Positions 17,611 through 30,703 of a stretch of 64,000 nt of DNA are shown here, piece by piece. The notes below the pieces were generated by a model. The model worked only from the letters and a program-made list of their open reading frames with translations, had not been told where the DNA came from and did not search any database. Source of the stretch: Teredinibacter franksiae. GTDB lineage: Bacteria > Pseudomonadota > Gammaproteobacteria > Pseudomonadales > Cellvibrionaceae. Positions within the stretch are counted from its first letter, which is position 1. Every line of letters begins with the position of its first letter. The stretch lies in contig NZ_JACJUV010000001.1 in assembly GCF_014218805.1 (NCBI RefSeq), positions 3,794,501-3,858,500 on the forward strand. Reading direction: 5' to 3'. Made by a program: the position numbers and the translations under genes.

Positions 17611-18570
17611 ATGGATAAATTCGACCGCTTCCAACAACTGCATCGTTTATTCCGCTCACGAAAAAGACCTATTCCTATAAATGAGATAGCCACCAAGCTC
17701 GAATGCTCCGAAGGCACTGCAAAAAGACTCATAAACCAATTGCGAGACTATTGGCAGGCGCCGCTTGAATACAGCAAAGAGCACAATGGTTGGTATTACG
17801 AATCAACATTATTAAAAAGCTTCGAGCTACCCGGCTTGTGGCTTACGGCGGAAGAATTACAATCACTAACCGCGCTGCTACACCTAATAGAAAATATGAG
17901 CGAAGGGGTGCTAAATAGCGAGTTGAGCGTAGTAGAAAAAAGCATCCACAAGCTAATAGGTGCGCGCGGCATTAATTCTGCAGAAATAACACAGCGCATA
18001 AAATATTTACCCATGGCCAAGCGCCATACAAATCATCATATTTACACGGCAGTAGCCGATGCCCTTATTCAGCGAAAACAACTCACTATTGTGTATCGCG
18101 ATTACCACAACAAAAAAACCACTCGTACCCTTAGTCCTCAAACGCTAGTGTACTACCGCGAAAACTGGCATCTAGATGCCTGGTGCCATTTACGCAACGA
18201 ACTGCGCACCTTCTCCATTTCGCGAATAGAAAGGCTAGAAAAAGAAAAGCAAAAAGCCAAAGCTATTCCCGAACAGCAACTGGCAGAGCACTTTGCCAGC
18301 AGCTTTGGCCTGTTTGCGGGCAAAGCCAAACACACAGCCAAACTTCGCTTTTATCCGGAAGTTGCCCGAGAAATTGCCAGCCAGCAGTGGCACCCAGAAC
18401 AAGAGGGTGAATGGAAAAATAAAAATTACCTATTAACTATACCCTACAGCCACGATGCTGAATTGGTAATGGAAATACTCAAATACGGCAATAACGTAGA
18501 AGTTTTGGCGCCTGCGGCCTTAAAAGGGCGTGTAAAAGATAAATTAAAGGGCGCGCTGCAATACTATTGA
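17611..18570 (+). CDS. WYL-domain transcriptional regulator next to the cas genes
   Basis: A DNA-binding regulator of 319 residues. The N-terminal helix-turn-helix is visible (IPINEIATKLECSEGTAKRL, about residues 21-42), and a WYL domain lies in the middle (LTIVYRDYHNKKTTRTLSP, then YYRENWHLDAWCHLRNELRTFSISRIERLE). A C-terminal WCX-like extension ends in ...LVMEILKYGNNVEVLAPAALKGRVKDKLKGA. WYL domains are thought to sense nucleic-acid-like ligands, and WYL regulators commonly accompany CRISPR-Cas and phage-defence loci (established association). It ends 104 bases before cas1 on the same strand, so it is a likely regulator of this system. Whether it represses or activates cannot be told from sequence. 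Confidence 0.88.
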   Translation: MDKFDRFQQLHRLFRSRKRPIPINEIATKLECSEGTAKRLINQLRDYWQAPLEYSKEHNGWYYESTLLKSFELPGLWLTAEELQSLTALLHLIENMSEGVLNSELSVVEKSIHKLIGARGINSAEITQRIKYLPMAKRHTNHHIYTAVADALIQRKQLTIVYRDYHNKKTTRTLSPQTLVYYRENWHLDAWCHLRNELRTFSISRIERLEKEKQKAKAIPEQQLAEHFASSFGLFAGKAKHTAKLRFYPEVAREIASQQWHPEQEGEWKNKNYLLTIPYSHDAELVMEILKYGNNVEVLAPAALKGRVKDKLKGALQYY

Positions 18571-18674: not shown

Positions 18675-19637
18675 ATGGAAGATTTCTCGCCATCAGATTT
18701 AAAAGCCATCCTTCATTCGAAAAGGGCAAACCTCTATTACCTAGAGCATTGCCGCGTAATGCAAAAAGATGGCCGGGTACTCTATTTAAAAGAAGCCAAG
18801 CAAGAAAACCAGTACTGGAATATCCCCATAGCCAATACCACTGTCGTAATGCTGGGCACGGGCACATCCATTACCCAAGCGGCGGTGAGAATGCTTTCGC
18901 AGGCGGGCGTGCTACTTGGTTTTTGTGGCGGGGGTGGCTCACCGCTTTATATGGGCTGCGAAATTGAATGGATGACCGCTCAAAGTGAATACCGTCCCAC
19001 GCAATACTTACAAGGCTGGGTGAGCTTTTGGTTTGACGACAGCAAGCGGTTGGCCGCAGCAAAACACCTGCAGCAAGCAAGAATAAATTACCTACTTACC
19101 ACCTGGGCCAAAGACAAAGACCTGAAAAGTGAAGGCCTGAATGTGCAAGACATCGATGTGCAAAACGCATTGGATGTATTTAAGGTGCGAACTGAGCGCG
19201 CCCAAACCTCTAGCGAATTATTACTTACCGAAGCTCAGCTCACTAAAACCCTTTACAAATACGTAGCCCAAAGAACCGACTTCGCCGATTTTAGCCGCGA
19301 ACGAGACGGTACCGACAAAGCCAATGCCTTTTTAAACCACGGTAACTACCTAGCCTACGGCCTTGCCGCAACCGCACTCTGGGTACTGGGCATACCCCAC
19401 GGCTTTGCCGTTATGCACGGTAAAACACGCAGGGGTGCTTTAGTGTTTGACGTGGCCGACCTAATAAAAGACGCAATCGTACTGCCCTGGGCGTTTGTGT
19501 GCGCAAAGGAAAACGCCACAGAGCAGGAGTTCCGCCAGCAAATACTGCAAAGCTTTACCAACCATAAAGCGCTGGATTGCATGTTTGACCAAGTGAAGGC
19601 CATTGCGTTGGGTGGTAGTGAGGAGCAGGGAATATGA
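18675..19637 (+). CDS. cas1: Cas1, type I-F integrase
   Basis: The metal-dependent endonuclease that, with Cas2, integrates new spacers. The protein has 320 residues, close to the 324 of Pseudomonas aeruginosa Cas1. The catalytic set aligns: Glu186 in LLLTEAQLTK, His248 in FAVMHGKTRRG, and Asp259/Asp262 in FDVADLIKD, keeping the 11 and 14 residue spacing of PaCas1 (His254, Asp265, Asp268). The N-terminal half has the I-F features LKAILHSKRANLYYLEHCRV and LGTGTSITQAAVRMLSQAGVLLGFCGGGG. In standard I-F loci cas2-3 follows directly; here a convergent vapBC pair of about 570 bases separates them. The gene appears intact. Confidence 0.97.
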   Translation: MEDFSPSDLKAILHSKRANLYYLEHCRVMQKDGRVLYLKEAKQENQYWNIPIANTTVVMLGTGTSITQAAVRMLSQAGVLLGFCGGGGSPLYMGCEIEWMTAQSEYRPTQYLQGWVSFWFDDSKRLAAAKHLQQARINYLLTTWAKDKDLKSEGLNVQDIDVQNALDVFKVRTERAQTSSELLLTEAQLTKTLYKYVAQRTDFADFSRERDGTDKANAFLNHGNYLAYGLAATALWVLGIPHGFAVMHGKTRRGALVFDVADLIKDAIVLPWAFVCAKENATEQEFRQQILQSFTNHKALDCMFDQVKAIALGGSEEQGI

Positions 19638-24247: not shown

Positions 24248-25258
24248 ATGAGAATTACAATAGAATATGAAGCCTCATGGCGAAATTCCTTTCTCGACCC
24301 CGCGACCAGTAATAATGAGGCTTTGCCGAAAGAGGGGAGAAAATTTATCGGCTCAATGACCAAATTGAAGAATGCTGAAAACTATATTAGCAGGCATGTT
24401 ACGGTTGATACGGTTATGGGTATTTTGAATAGATTGGTGGGAGACCAAAGGAAACTATACCAGGCCCGATCAAGTAATAACTATTATTTTCGGTATGTTG
24501 AATCGAAGATTAAATTTGAAGACAAACCAGAATACATCAATAGTGAAATTGTCTTCATTCGCAATATTTCCGGTAGCACCGATCAGAATTCGTATACTGG
24601 TATGGTTAATAATCATGACCCTATATTCACTTCTGACTATTCTCGTGAATTCTGGTCGATTCTCGCAATGGATTTTCAAGAGCTATGCCTATTTATTACC
24701 AATGGGTCGAAATTTAATAAAACTATTGAGTTGAATCCACTAGTTATTATTGACCGTCTAGAAGAGATTCATAAAATGAAATCTGTACTAAACGAGAGTC
24801 ACGTTTTTACGGCCCATAAGGTTTTGTCTGAGTCGTTCGAGAAGTTCAAAGGCCTAAATAATAAAGGAGAAGTGCTACCGATAAGCTTATATTGTTCCTC
24901 GCTGTATTTGCAGCTTGACCGTTTGGGTGGTGCCTACAATATGGATACTGCCAAAACAAAGTCTGGTGGGTTAAGTGGAGTTTCAAATAATGGATTTACA
25001 AAAAAGGATTTTATGAACAGATATACCACTGGCGACAAGAAAAAAATATGGGGGAACCCGTATATGCGCGAAAATTTCGTAAAAGGCGAAGGGCGATCTA
25101 GGCAATTGTTAACAAAGGCCAGTGGAAAGCTTGTAATAAATATAGATATTGATCGAGAGCAGGCGAAAAAATTACAGAGTGATATCGAATACGCCGGCGT
25201 ATCAAGCTTCTATCTTGGTAAAAAAGGCCTTGCCTATATTTCAGATATGCGGATCTAG
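24248..25258 (+). CDS. cas5fv: Cas5fv, 5'-handle and PAM-reading subunit of I-F2 Cascade
   Basis: A 336-residue protein in the position and of the size of Cas5fv of Shewanella putrefaciens CN-32. In that system Cas5fv caps the 5' handle, reads the GG PAM and takes over functions of the missing large subunit Cas8f (established). Visible features: a RAMP-like start RITIEYEASWRNSFLDP, a glycine-rich patch SGGLSGVSNNGFTKKDFMNRYTTG, and the C-terminal INIDIDREQAKKLQSDIEYAGVSSFYLGKKGLAYI. SD GGGGGG lies just before the ATG; the gap to cas7fv is 11 bases and to cas6f 8 bases. Assignment rests on gene order and length more than on recognised motifs. Confidence 0.87.
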   Translation: MRITIEYEASWRNSFLDPATSNNEALPKEGRKFIGSMTKLKNAENYISRHVTVDTVMGILNRLVGDQRKLYQARSSNNYYFRYVESKIKFEDKPEYINSEIVFIRNISGSTDQNSYTGMVNNHDPIFTSDYSREFWSILAMDFQELCLFITNGSKFNKTIELNPLVIIDRLEEIHKMKSVLNESHVFTAHKVLSESFEKFKGLNNKGEVLPISLYCSSLYLQLDRLGGAYNMDTAKTKSGGLSGVSNNGFTKKDFMNRYTTGDKKKIWGNPYMRENFVKGEGRSRQLLTKASGKLVINIDIDREQAKKLQSDIEYAGVSSFYLGKKGLAYISDMRI

Positions 25259-25266
25259 GAGTTAAA

Positions 25267-25818
25267 ATGGATACCTACATAGACATTACCTTAAAACCAG
25301 ACTCGGAGAAACCGTCAAACTGGGTGCTAAACGAAGCCTACACAAAATTTCACCAATTTCTCTGGGAACTTAAGGTCAACGATATAGGCGTGAGTTTTCC
25401 GGGCTACAGAGTTACATTGGGAAGTATTTTACGTCTACATTCTAATCATTCTTCTCTCAATAAAATTGCTGATGGAAAATGGTTGGGACGCTCGAGCGAT
25501 AACGTCACTATTTCTAAACTTCAGCAGGTGCCCATAAACACCAAGCACCGAACAGTGTCCCGTAAACAATCCAATATGAGTGAATCCAAGCTCAAACGCA
25601 TACTCAAGCGTGGCTCGATTACTGAGATGGAAGCGAAAGCCTATCGCGCAAAAATGTTTGCAAGTGGCTTGGATAACCCTTACGTGGAATTGGTGAGTGC
25701 ATCCAATGGCAATAGGCATCGCCGTTATATCGAATTCGGCGAATTGCAGGATACGCCAGTGGAAGGGGTGTTTGACTTCTTCGGCCTTTCAAAAACAGCT
25801 ACTGTCCCTTGGTTTTAG
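25267..25818 (+). CDS. cas6f: Cas6f (Csy4), crRNA-processing endonuclease
   Basis: The 183-residue endonuclease that cuts the repeat hairpin and stays bound to the 3' end of each crRNA. It begins with the Csy4 pattern MDTYIDITLKPDSE. The likely catalytic His is in YTKFHQFLWEL (equivalent to Csy4 His29), the hairpin-binding arginine-rich helix is SESKLKRILKRG, and the end motif is FDFFGLSKTATVPWF. The matching RNA hairpin, stem CTGCC/GGCAG with a GCACA loop, is present in every repeat of the adjacent array. Last gene of the operon, 8 bases after cas5fv with SD GGAG, followed by a terminator. Confidence 0.96.
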   Translation: MDTYIDITLKPDSEKPSNWVLNEAYTKFHQFLWELKVNDIGVSFPGYRVTLGSILRLHSNHSSLNKIADGKWLGRSSDNVTISKLQQVPINTKHRTVSRKQSNMSESKLKRILKRGSITEMEAKAYRAKMFASGLDNPYVELVSASNGNRHRRYIEFGELQDTPVEGVFDFFGLSKTATVPWF

Positions 25819-25862: not shown

Positions 25863-26220
25863 CTATTCAATTTTTTATAGTTGTTCATCTAGCTTGCTCT
25901 GGTGCAAATTCAGAAATGGGCGTTACCCTCCTCAGGGGATTTCTGCTCAATGCTACGTTTAAATACCTCCATAGCTATATCAAGCTTGCCGCGACCGATA
26001 ACTATCTTGTATGTATTTCGCAGGAAGAAAGGCTTGATAAGCCGAGCTACAGGGCAAAAGTAGAGCCTGGTTGCACTATAACGATACTGAAACGGGAGAT
26101 CTCTGTTCATTTGCCATGGGAGCAGAGGTAGCTTCCGTTTATTTGACCGATGCGATAAGACTATAGAGCCCGTTGGGGCTCAAATAGCGGTAAGTCGCGT
26201 GCGAGTCAAATTTTTAGGTA
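25863..26220. other. Intergenic region between the cas operon and the leader
   Basis: No gene is supported. Open frames exist on both strands (66 codons on the minus strand, 25910-26110; 144 on the plus strand running over from cas6f), but neither resembles a known family nor has a convincing start. It may be the outer part of the CRISPR leader or remains of a lost gene. Confidence 0.4.
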
Positions 26221-26355
26221 TAACACCAATAAAAAGTGCTCTTTAAAAAAGCGTTTATAAATCAATAAGTTACACGAACACGGAAAAGTATAGGTAAAAC
26301 GGCGTTTTTTACCGTAAGTGTTTGTTGTAACTTACTTTTTTGGATTAAACTTGTA
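26221..26355 (+). promoter_or_regulatory. CRISPR leader with an IHF site and nested inverted repeats
   Basis: AT-rich sequence next to the first repeat. AATCAATAAGTTA at 26260-26272 is a perfect match to the IHF consensus WATCAANNNNTTR, 84 bases before the first repeat. An imperfect inverted repeat joins TAAGTTACACGAACAC (26266-26281) to GTGTTTGTTGTAACTTA (26318-26334), and inside it lies GGTAAAA-N5-TTTTTTACC (26293-26313). IHF bending of the leader is needed for type I-F spacer acquisition (established in Pectobacterium). A promoter for the array must be here, but no strong -35/-10 pair stands out. Confidence 0.78.
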
Positions 26356-29300
26356 GTTCACTGCCGCACAGGCAGCTTAGAAATCTTTAATCAAGATATG
26401 ACGAACAGTCGCAAGGTTCACTGCCGCACAGGCAGCTTAGAAAGAAGGGGCTGTTTGTTTTATCGAAACCATCCAGTTCACTGCCGCACAGGCAGCTTAG
26501 AAATTTGTCAGCCGCGCGAAATAAGCTCTTCAATAGTTCACTGCCGCACAGGCAGCTTAGAAAATTGCTGTTTGAGAATGGCACATTGAATAGGAGTTCA
26601 CTGCCGCACAGGCAGCTTAGAAATATATACAGTCCCATCAACAGCCGTATCTGACGTTCACTGCCGCACAGGCAGCTTAGAAAGTTACCGTTCCAACCGA
26701 GCTATTAATGATAACGTTCACTGCCGCACAGGCAGCTTAGAAAATCGGTTGACCCCGGGGTAACCGTCATACCATGTTCACTGCCGCACAGGCAGCTTAG
26801 AAAAATATGGCAAGCAAAGCCAAAAAATCAAGCTCGTTCACTGCCGCACAGGCAGCTTAGAAATCGAAGTAATCCATTGCCCGATAAATCAACGCGTTCA
26901 CTGCCGCACAGGCAGCTTAGAAATCTTATAATTACCGAGACTCTTTGCTTGGATAGTTCACTGCCGCACAGGCAGCTTAGAAATCTTGTTCCGGCTGGTA
27001 GGCGCTCAGGCAAAAGTTCACTGCCGCACAGGCAGCTTAGAAATGCTACAAGCCCATAACCGCGTGGTATAGCAAGTTCACTGCCGCACAGGCAGCTTAG
27101 AAAAGTAGGTAAGCCAAAGTAATCGCCAAGGCTGCGTTCACTGCCGCACAGGCAGCTTAGAAAAAAAGAAATTAAGCGCTACTATACAGACCGATGTTCA
27201 CTGCCGCACAGGCAGCTTAGAAAACCACATGTACGGCTCGGCCTTTAAGCATAACGTTCACTGCCGCACAGGCAGCTTAGAAAGCTCGAAATTGACTGGT
27301 AATAGCTGCCATCACGTTCACTGCCGCACAGGCAGCTTAGAAATTAGCTATTCGGGTATGAGTGAGTGCGCAGCAGTTCACTGCCGCACAGGCAGCTTAG
27401 AAAGGGTCTAAAATATACGACTTTAGGTCTTGCATGTTCACTGCCGCACAGGCAGCTTAGAAAAGTCCCCCGCCGCGTGGTAGCGAGTATTAACAGTTCA
27501 CTGCCGCACAGGCAGCTTAGAAAAAATAATCGTTTTCTATCAAATTAATAATGTAGTTCACTGCCGCACAGGCAGCTTAGAAATTCCACGTTGCGGAGGG
27601 GACGTTCTCCGTAAAGTTCACTGCCGCACAGGCAGCTTAGAAATACATATAACGCTAACGGACAAAAGACGATATGTTCACTGCCGCACAGGCAGCTTAG
27701 AAAAGAATCAACGCAACACAGAATATCAACGCAACGTTCACTGCCGCACAGGCAGCTTAGAAAAGAACTCAGCAGACCAGGAGGAGTCAGCGTTTGTTCA
27801 CTGCCGCACAGGCAGCTTAGAAAATCAGCTCCAATAGATACTGTCGCGCCCACTGGTTCACTGCCGCACAGGCAGCTTAGAAATATCCACATCTCCTCTC
27901 CCTTAGCTACTTCTGGTTCACTGCCGCACAGGCAGCTTAGAAATCAGTAGGGTAAAAACCCTCAAGATAAACCTCGTTCACTGCCGCACAGGCAGCTTAG
28001 AAAGCAATGCCAGCATTCAACAATCCAGCCCTCCTGTTCACTGCCGCACAGGCAGCTTAGAAAAATTGCCCTGAGTTTGTCAAAGGGTACGAAGCGTTCA
28101 CTGCCGCACAGGCAGCTTAGAAATTGTCTTGGCATGATTTAAGCATAGATGCAGCGTTCACTGCCGCACAGGCAGCTTAGAAAGCTATACAAGCCCATTT
28201 TTATTGGCTGTGGCTGTTCACTGCCGCACAGGCAGCTTAGAAAGCAGAAAGACGCGCGGCCGTAGTTGTGAGTGAGTTCACTGCCGCACAGGCAGCTTAG
28301 AAATCTTTTCGGGACGTTCTTATAATCTCCCACGCGTTCACTGCCGCACAGGCAGCTTAGAAAATATAACTAGCTCCTGTTGAATATGTGCTTAGGTTCA
28401 CTGCCGCACAGGCAGCTTAGAAAAACCAGCGATAACGGAGGGGGCTACGGCCCCAGTTCACTGCCGCACAGGCAGCTTAGAAATTTTGTTGGCTGGACTT
28501 GTGGATTTTCACTTGGTTCACTGCCGCACAGGCAGCTTAGAAAAGATACAGTAAGTATGCGCGGTTCAGCGAATCGTTCACTGCCGCACAGGCAGCTTAG
28601 AAAACACTTTCACGGAGTTGGTAACATGAAAACATGTTCACTGCCGCACAGGCAGCTTAGAAATATGGATTAAATTAACTAAAGAAAGGTGATGGGTTCA
28701 CTGCCGCACAGGCAGCTTAGAAATTATTTAACCAGCCGTACAGCCGGCTGAAATAGTTCACTGCCGCACAGGCAGCTTAGAAATCGTTGGCCTTCGCCTT
28801 GATAGCATTCATCAGGTTCACTGCCGCACAGGCAGCTTAGAAATTGAGTTGTACGACAGGGCCCGATACGTGGCGGTTCACTGCCGCACAGGCAGCTTAG
28901 AAAACTACGTGGCAGCGCGGGGGGCGTTTATATGCGTTCACTGCCGCACAGGCAGCTTAGAAAATATGCCGCCATTGCCGCTTGCCTTGGAAGTTGTTCA
29001 CTGCCGCACAGGCAGCTTAGAAATTTCCCGTCTTTTAGATCGTATGCGAGGCTCAGTTCACTGCCGCACAGGCAGCTTAGAAAGATAAAAGTTACTGTTG
29101 CCCCGGTTGCATTACGTTCACTGCCGCACAGGCAGCTTAGAAATTTTCAATCTGGCCGCCAAACGAAGTTTTTGCGTTCACTGCCGCACAGGCAGCTTAG
29201 AAAAAAAGCCGTAAGTGGTGAAAGTATTTTTGCCCGTTCACTGCCGCACAGGCAGCTTAGAAATGCGAGCGTTGTTACTGCCCATCCCGATTTGAGTTCA

Positions 29301-30703
29301 CTGCCGCACAGGCAGCTTAGAAAAGTGGTTCGAATACCTCGTTAGGAAATAGCGCGTTCACTGCCGCACAGGCAGCTTATAAATTCCTCATACTGAAGCA
29401 TATCAAAAGCTTGATGTTCACTGCCGCACAGGCAGCTTAGAAACATCATGGATAACATGTATCTCGATACATTTTGTTCACTGCCGCACAGGCAGCTTAG
29501 AAAACGCACTTGGCGCTAATTCGCGCGCCAGTCCGGTTCACTGCCGCACAGGCAGCTTAGAAAAGCCCGGTTAGATCGTCCTGAATAACCATTTCGTTCA
29601 CTGCCGCACAGGCAGCTTAGAAATAGTTACAGATCGTCTAGTCAGATCGATATTGGTTCACTGCCGCACAGGCAGCTTAGAAAGTTATGCCTGTGGCCTG
29701 TACGGTCTTAACGTTGTTCACTGCCGCACAGGCAGCTTAGAAAGTACCCGGAATGATCGACCACTTTTAAAAAAAGTTCACTGCCGCACAGGCAGCTTAG
29801 AAAGCAGGAAAATGGGACGAAACTATGGAAAAAATGTTCACTGCCGCACAGGCAGCTTAGAAATAGGTGACGGTGATGGCGGTAATGCAACAGCAGTTCA
29901 CTGCCGCACAGGCAGCTTAGAAATTGAACCCCATCGTGCCGAGTGTGATACCAAAGTTCACTGCCGCACAGGCAGCTTAGAAAGCAACGGGCGCAGCATC
30001 CACGATTGTAGACGGGTTCACTGCCGCACAGGCAGCTTAGAAATAACGCGAGTATTGAATTCGTATCGATTGATGGTTCACTGCCGCACAGGCAGCTTAG
30101 AAATGTTAATGTCATCATTGTCCTTCTCCAAAAAAGTTCACTGCCGCACAGGCAGCTTAGAAAGTACCCGCACGCGAAAATCAATCTTTCGGAGTGTTCA
30201 CTGCCGCACAGGCAGCTTAGAAATCAACCAGTGCATACTCGCCTAGCTGGATGTCGTTCACTGCCGCACAGGCAGCTTAGAAAGAAAACTGCATTTTAGT
30301 GCGTATAAATGAAGAGTTCACTGCCGCACAGGCAGCTTAGAAACCAGGACGGGACGCCACTGACCCGGAGCGGGTGTTCACTGCCGCACAGGCAGCTTAG
30401 AAAGCAGGTAGAAGCGTGGTCGGGGACACGTTTATGTTCACTGCCGCACAGGCAGCTTAGAAAATTGACGCGGCTACACTCGACCGTTTTTGTATGTTCA
30501 CTGCCGCACAGGCAGCTTAGAAAATATCCACACGCGAAAATCAATCTTTCGGAGTGTTCACTGCCGCACAGGCAGCTTAGAAACCTAAAATCGCGCAATA
30601 ATCGCCGTTTGGCAAGTTCACTGCCGCACAGGCAGCTTAGAAAATCACCAAAATCAACGCCCTGACCCACTAACAGTTCACTGCTGCACAGGCACCCATC
30701 TTC
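26356..30703 (+). CRISPR. Type I-F CRISPR array: 72 spacers, 28-base repeat, fixed 60-base period
   Basis: Repeats of 28 bases begin at 26356 and recur every 60 bases without any change of phase to 30676, giving 73 repeats and 72 spacers, all of 32 bases. Each repeat starts GTTCA, holds the hairpin CTGCC-GCACA-GGCAG and ends CTTAGAAA, as in type I-F. The copy at 29356 reads CTTATAAA. The last copy (30676) has CTGCTGCAC and a diverged 3' half, so the trailer is at the right and the leader at the left; newest spacers are therefore near 26384. Two old spacers (30164-30195 and 30524-30555) are near identical. Open frames across the array are by-products of the period. Confidence 0.99.

Follow-up and report, generated by a model that had tools for sequence, protein, structure and literature searches.

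Cas genes and CRISPR array

The window analysed here, the whole stretch of 64,000 nucleotides from Teredinibacter franksiae, contains a CRISPR array which, judged by profile matches of its neighbours, is adjoined on its left side by a minimal type I-Fv (I-F2) cas set. The features are listed below, including the two spacers with which this analysis is concerned.

18675..19637, + strand: cas1 (Cas1f), TIGR03637 470.5 bits (cut-off 150), PADLOC Cas1fv 593 bits
20289..23288, + strand: cas3fv, PADLOC Cas3fv 1388.9 bits
23292..24236, + strand: cas7fv, NF040577 474.7 bits (cut-off 200)
24248..25258, + strand: cas5fv, PADLOC Cas5fv 488.7 bits, without NCBIfam match
25267..25818, + strand: cas6f / csy4, TIGR02563 168.1 bits (cut-off 36.25)
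26156..26355, + strand: putative leader, an AT-rich stretch (65%, computed) ahead of repeat 1
26356..30643, + strand: CRISPR array, 72 repeats of 28 nt and 71 spacers of 32 nt
30164..30195, + strand: spacer 64 (version A), by its position the more recent of the two
30524..30555, + strand: spacer 70 (version B), by its position the earlier of the two
30644..30703, + strand: trailer end, with a 72nd spacer (30644-30675) and a decayed terminal repeat (30676-30703)

PADLOC recognised Cas5fv, Cas7fv and Cas6f, and Cas7fv and Csy4 exceeded their NCBIfam cut-offs, placing the system in type I-Fv. The N-terminal part of Cas3fv matches the I-F Cas3f model, with residues 16-112 aligned to model positions 1-97, and a large subunit (Csy1/Cas8f) was not found among the nine + strand ORFs tested between 14265 and 26131. 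The minimal Cas5fv/Cas7fv/Cas6f set and the 32-nt spacers are shared with the I-Fv system of Shewanella putrefaciens CN-32, as described in passages of PMC4605320 and PMC7266957, and a GG PAM on the target strand may be a further common trait; that system belongs to a different host. A WYL-domain protein adjoining cas1 (17611-18570; PADLOC WYL, 135 bits) is possibly a regulator of the CRISPR locus.

The array is built on the repeat GTTCACTGCCGCACAGGCAGCTTAGAAA, which is conserved to a single substitution in the 2016 bases of the 72 repeats, located in repeat 51 at 29356. The cas genes and the 65% AT content at the left, compared with 56% in the 200 bases to the right of the array, together with the decayed repeat beginning at 30676, place the leader at the left and the trailer at the right, in agreement with the orientation proposed in an earlier note on this DNA. 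Assuming insertion at the leader end, spacer 64 is therefore younger than spacer 70. Among 61 genomes from the family, five have repeats of this kind, the present genome included. Cas7fv was detected in one of 19 relatives, the present genome itself, so that no sister array is available to date the captures. By eye, spacer 23 (27704-27735) contains an internal repeat, ATCAACGCAACA and ATCAACGCAAC, perhaps taken from a repeated stretch of an invader.

The sibling spacers and their target gene

Spacers 64 and 70 are both 32 nt long and identical at bases 8-32, differing only by transitions at bases 1 (G/A), 4 (C/T) and 7 (G/A), exactly as the earlier note had described. The remaining pairs among the 71 spacers, compared in both orientations, share a longest common word of 11 nt and have a smallest Hamming distance of 15; this comparison omitted the 72nd spacer (30644-30675), preceding the decayed last repeat, which has at most 10 nt in common with any of the 71. 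On both strands there is a frame in which the three changes leave the peptide unaltered, + frame 1 reading YPHAKINLSE and - frame 2 reading SERLIFACGY, which bears out the codon argument of that note as far as translation goes. Three random substitutions would all be silent in the coding frame with P = 0.044 if only transitions are drawn and 0.015 for any change, and would be silent in at least one fully covering frame of the six with P = 0.10 (transitions) or 0.048 (any). The silence of the changes is by itself weak evidence, and since the pattern alone is only moderately unusual, the codon argument requires a test from outside the array.

Such a test was provided by the predicted peptide. 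With CC placed ahead, both spacers translate as P-YPHAKINL-SE, and viral contigs were scanned with a codon-degenerate YPHAKINL pattern of which the PAM formed no part. Seven loci were recovered, and five of them carry the identical site in a gene for an SprT-like metalloprotease; four of these five read G-P-YPHAKINL and have CC immediately ahead of spacer base 1, the position expected for a type I-F PAM. The fifth SprT-like locus (L007) has GA, with Glu, at that position and is identical to spacer 70 over bases 1-25, its protein matching PF10263 at 33.8 bits (cut-off 25.6) as well as phrog_6361. The other two loci (L005 and L008) were rejected as targets, their frames being 23 and 41 codons long and the peptide lying at a different place. 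The L008 contig carries both this chance-looking YPHAKINL in a short frame and an SprT-type site elsewhere, for which coincidence is the only explanation offered. The minus-strand reading SERLIFACGY was discarded as a rival frame, its peptide pattern returning 0 loci.

A second pattern, GPYPHAK, returned 18 loci, comprising the four with CC already known and 14 new ones, and 13 of the 14 new loci have HExxH upstream in frame. Similar genes are present in 162 records of phages and in 66 of plasmids. The P-YPHAKINL-SE of both spacers fits the G-x-YPHA motif that is conserved among the SprT-like metalloproteases of phages, a family (PF10263, phrog_6361) that includes a protein of Methylophilales phage Venkman EXVC282S and whose G-P-YPHAKINL the spacers encode in frame; a source gene with the Ser-Glu continuation is not among the family members found. 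Two genomes of one genus, the sole matches among 293 genomes of the order, have SprT-like genes with GPFPHG in place of GPYPHA (L105 and L106), possibly within prophages.

The specificity of the likeness was assessed by comparing 264 stop-free translations of the 71 spacers, each with CC prefixed, with 90 SprT proteins. The peptides of spacers 64 and 70 gave the best match at E 6e-7, the runner-up reaching 7e-4 over five residues. Because some of the loci behind the 90 proteins had been picked by spacer-derived patterns, the control was repeated with 70 proteins from contigs not fetched by such a pattern, although this set still descends from alignment A1, made from the first hits. Spacers 64 and 70 again led, at E 8e-5 against 6e-4 for the runner-up, a small lead, with YPHAKINLSE aligned to YPHAKLDLSD as the best alignment.

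Searches for the protospacer itself were negative. An exact 32-nt protospacer of either version was found nowhere outside the array in all the collections searched, nor were two invaders each matching one of the spacers. The exact shared 23-mer and a degenerate pattern of the type P-YPHAK-x-N-x-S-E/D each gave 0 loci in IMG/VR, and P-YPHAKINL-SE gave 0 in GTDB contigs. Short blastn recovered no full protospacer in phages and, for version A only, none in plasmids; the best phage match, in a 'structural protein' gene of Salinibacter phage M1EM-1 (89.3% over 28 bases, E 0.08), was taken as chance, as was RYPHAALNLSD in a short frame (L145). Within the genome of T. franksiae the shared 25-mer occurs only at the two array places and a protein search for SprT found none, and in eight genomes of the genus, this one included, the spacer sequences occur at up to 3 mismatches in the array only.

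It is improbable that the spacers came from another gene or element and resemble the SprT motif by chance. This reading draws on the missing exact protospacer of both versions, on a match that spans nine residues, with Ser-Glu following YPHAKINL in none of the seven loci of that scan, and on the two loci in short frames at another place. Opposed to it are the five of seven loci that fall at one place in one gene family, four of them with the PAM in register, and the empty result for the peptide of the opposite strand. Homology shows the reading frame and the gene family, and the probable target of the spacers is an SprT-like metalloprotease gene. The expectation of a protein-coding target in the + frame is thereby supported through the homologous site in phage SprT-like protease genes. 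The searches for invaders gave the site, the frame and the CC register in relatives, and the full protospacer of neither version.

Architecture of the site and the PAM

Sites of the form G-x-Y-[P/H]-H following HExxH were collected from 98 of the 121 loci scanned, giving 90 distinct sites, with YPH in all 90 and YPHA in 77. CC lies ahead of the site in 25 of the 90, made up of 13 of 13 from the GPYPHAK scan, 4 of 7 loci from the YPHAKINL scan and 8 of 70 others. The GPYPHAK pattern demanded GGNCC, so its 13 CC sites are biased; the main PAM argument is unaffected, as it rests on the YPHAKINL scan, which had no PAM in its pattern. Where the residue ahead of the site is Pro, its codon begins with the PAM CC and is completed by spacer base 1 as the silent third base; spacer bases 4 and 7 occupy the third positions of the Tyr and Pro codons in the G-P-Y-P-H-A motif.

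The two versions differ in how their first seven bases are distributed among relatives. The version A heptamer occurs at 4 of the 90 sites, with CC at all four, three of which come from the scan that demanded GGNCC. The version B heptamer also occurs at 4 of the 90, and none has CC (two GA, two AA); this counts against the simple story for version B, or its phage is so far unsampled. The GG PAM proposed earlier was thus found in the predicted frame at the four SprT sites of the YPHAKINL scan that carry CC, but at none of the sites with the B heptamer.

Two further spacers bear on the PAM through distant relatives of their targets. Spacer 52 (29444-29475) matches 29 of 32 bases of a Microviridae major capsid gene (MH572472), with CC directly ahead and in frame with a Pro codon, a match that supports the predicted CC PAM and the side on which it lies. 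Spacer 57 (29744-29775), likewise at 29 of 32 bases, matches the end of another microvirus major capsid gene (MK249171), across its final codons and stop codon, with GC ahead. One of these matches is for CC and one against. From the match of spacer 52, the host probably meets microviruses.

Origin of the two spacers

Spacers 64 and 70 are very probably separate captures by the type I-Fv system, both made at one PAM-anchored site in the SprT-like gene that two related phages carried. The grounds for independent capture are demonstrated in the preceding sections and in the array itself, comprising the homology-based reading frame and gene family, the register of the PAM in relatives, the array's polarity and the lack of duplicated neighbours. 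The two spacers share one register and their differences follow the codons of the target gene, bases 1, 4 and 7 being silent in the SprT frame. The protein would be constrained at the G-P-Y-P-H-A motif, so that phage versions would differ silently only; the two source phages would have been encountered at different times, each with CC ahead of the site. The proposal of independent captures from related invaders is thus well supported by the homologous SprT site, with duplication disfavoured.

An origin by in-array duplication of a single repeat-spacer unit, one copy of which then gained three substitutions, is very unlikely here, even though the base rates of one published reconstruction favour duplication over reacquisition (in the part of PMC11472070 used here, the 805 duplication candidates included 695 duplications, as against 8 reacquisitions and 7 independent insertions): the neighbours are unlike on both sides (63 against 69, 65 against 71), the rate of one substitution per 2016 repeat bases gives P = 5e-6 (upper bound 5e-4) for at least three in the 64 bases of the pair, and none of the three changes alters the peptide in the reading frame of a gene family that could be identified. 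Neither duplicated neighbouring units nor an identical copy is present, the copies differing at three bases. We judge the pattern of the pair to outweigh the published base rates, and duplication with mutation, the origin that the earlier note had named as fatal to its reading, is disfavoured by the unlike neighbours and the low substitution rate of the repeats.

Granting independent capture, the two captures may be connected in different ways. Nearly an even chance is given to two phage lineages, or mosaics with a joint near base 7, met in turn, the site being resampled by chance or preference without any escape. Both 5' heptamers occur at the site, in different SprT genes, and a recombination joint also places all differences at one end. 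If n spacers stem from one 40-kb kind of phage, the expected number of same-site pairs is between 0.009 (n = 10) and 0.5 (n = 71); the higher of these values, however, presuppose that a single kind of phage supplied the majority of the spacers, when spacers 52 and 57 suggest microviruses, and the clustering of differences in the seed is left to recombination or luck.

Escape followed by recapture is a substantial possibility, if short of even. Here the crRNA of spacer 70 would have selected a silent seed variant, and the mismatched target would have yielded spacer 64 at the same PAM, perhaps by priming. Spacer 70 is the older by position, and if the source of the newer spacer is taken as target, the older spacer has seed mismatches at 1, 4 and 7. 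These differences occupy the first three of the 11 codon-third positions, an arrangement expected in 1 of 165 cases by chance when counted post hoc, and all lie within the type I seed, positions 1-5 and 7-8, as given in a passage of PMC5965380. In type I-F, priming clusters new spacers near the primed site, according to parts of PMC4117759 and PMC5059440, and the authors of a report on Legionella type I-C pairs (PMC5071653) interpreted them in the same way. Passages of PMC4605320/PMC7266957 further report that replacement of 10 PAM-adjacent bases abolishes I-Fv interference, and for Sulfolobus an excerpt of PMC6452263 states that spacers with a perfect match are on average located closer to the leader.

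Several observations weigh against escape and recapture. A single seed change may suffice, three not being required; the B heptamer was never found with CC; and priming or seed mapping in I-Fv is not described in the passages of PMC4605320 and PMC7266957 drawn on here. The intervening spacers 65-69 had no match at E up to 0.05 in a local blastn of the 71 spacers against the fetched loci, from which L001, L002 and L121-L140 were omitted; 15-base matches of spacers 12, 22 and 59 in that search were taken as chance. The suggestion that a variant escaped the older spacer and was captured again therefore fits the order of the spacers and the position of the differences in the seed, but two phages in turn, or mosaicism, fit these equally. 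The fuller picture of a phage under CRISPR pressure at an unchangeable protein motif, able to make silent seed changes only while the host renews its memory at the same PAM, is regarded as unlikely.

The closest known case is the type I-C array of Legionella pneumophila ST222 with spacers against LME-1, where, in the sections of PMC5071653 consulted, older and newer spacers likewise stand in one array and the older carry PAM or seed mismatches, leading the authors to suggest escape and primed recapture. Those target sites overlap and the subtype is another one, whereas the present pair shares one site in the same register and has only silent differences; the Legionella invader is known and matched perfectly by the newer spacers, whereas here the source phage is not in hand. 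Among the matches listed in the open-access literature, no sibling spacer pair targeting SprT was recognised by title or start of abstract. With this precedent in Legionella I-C, the kind of event is already known, and the pair appears to be a clear example of it.

For T. franksiae, the pair appears to record that related phages were met more than once. Spacers that recur in an array are mostly classed as duplications, and codon phase, gene-family identity and PAM register together can tell recapture from duplication without the phage in hand. The analysis also names the probable invader gene, an SprT-like protease whose conserved motif provides the PAM through a Pro codon, and the pair offers two defined targets for silent seed escape in a minimal I-Fv system. 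If escape and recapture is true, renewal at the same site would have taken place in I-Fv, a subtype for which the passages of PMC4605320 and PMC7266957 used here describe no primed adaptation, and the array would document, as it happened in nature, escape through synonymous changes in the seed and the renewal of a spacer at one site.
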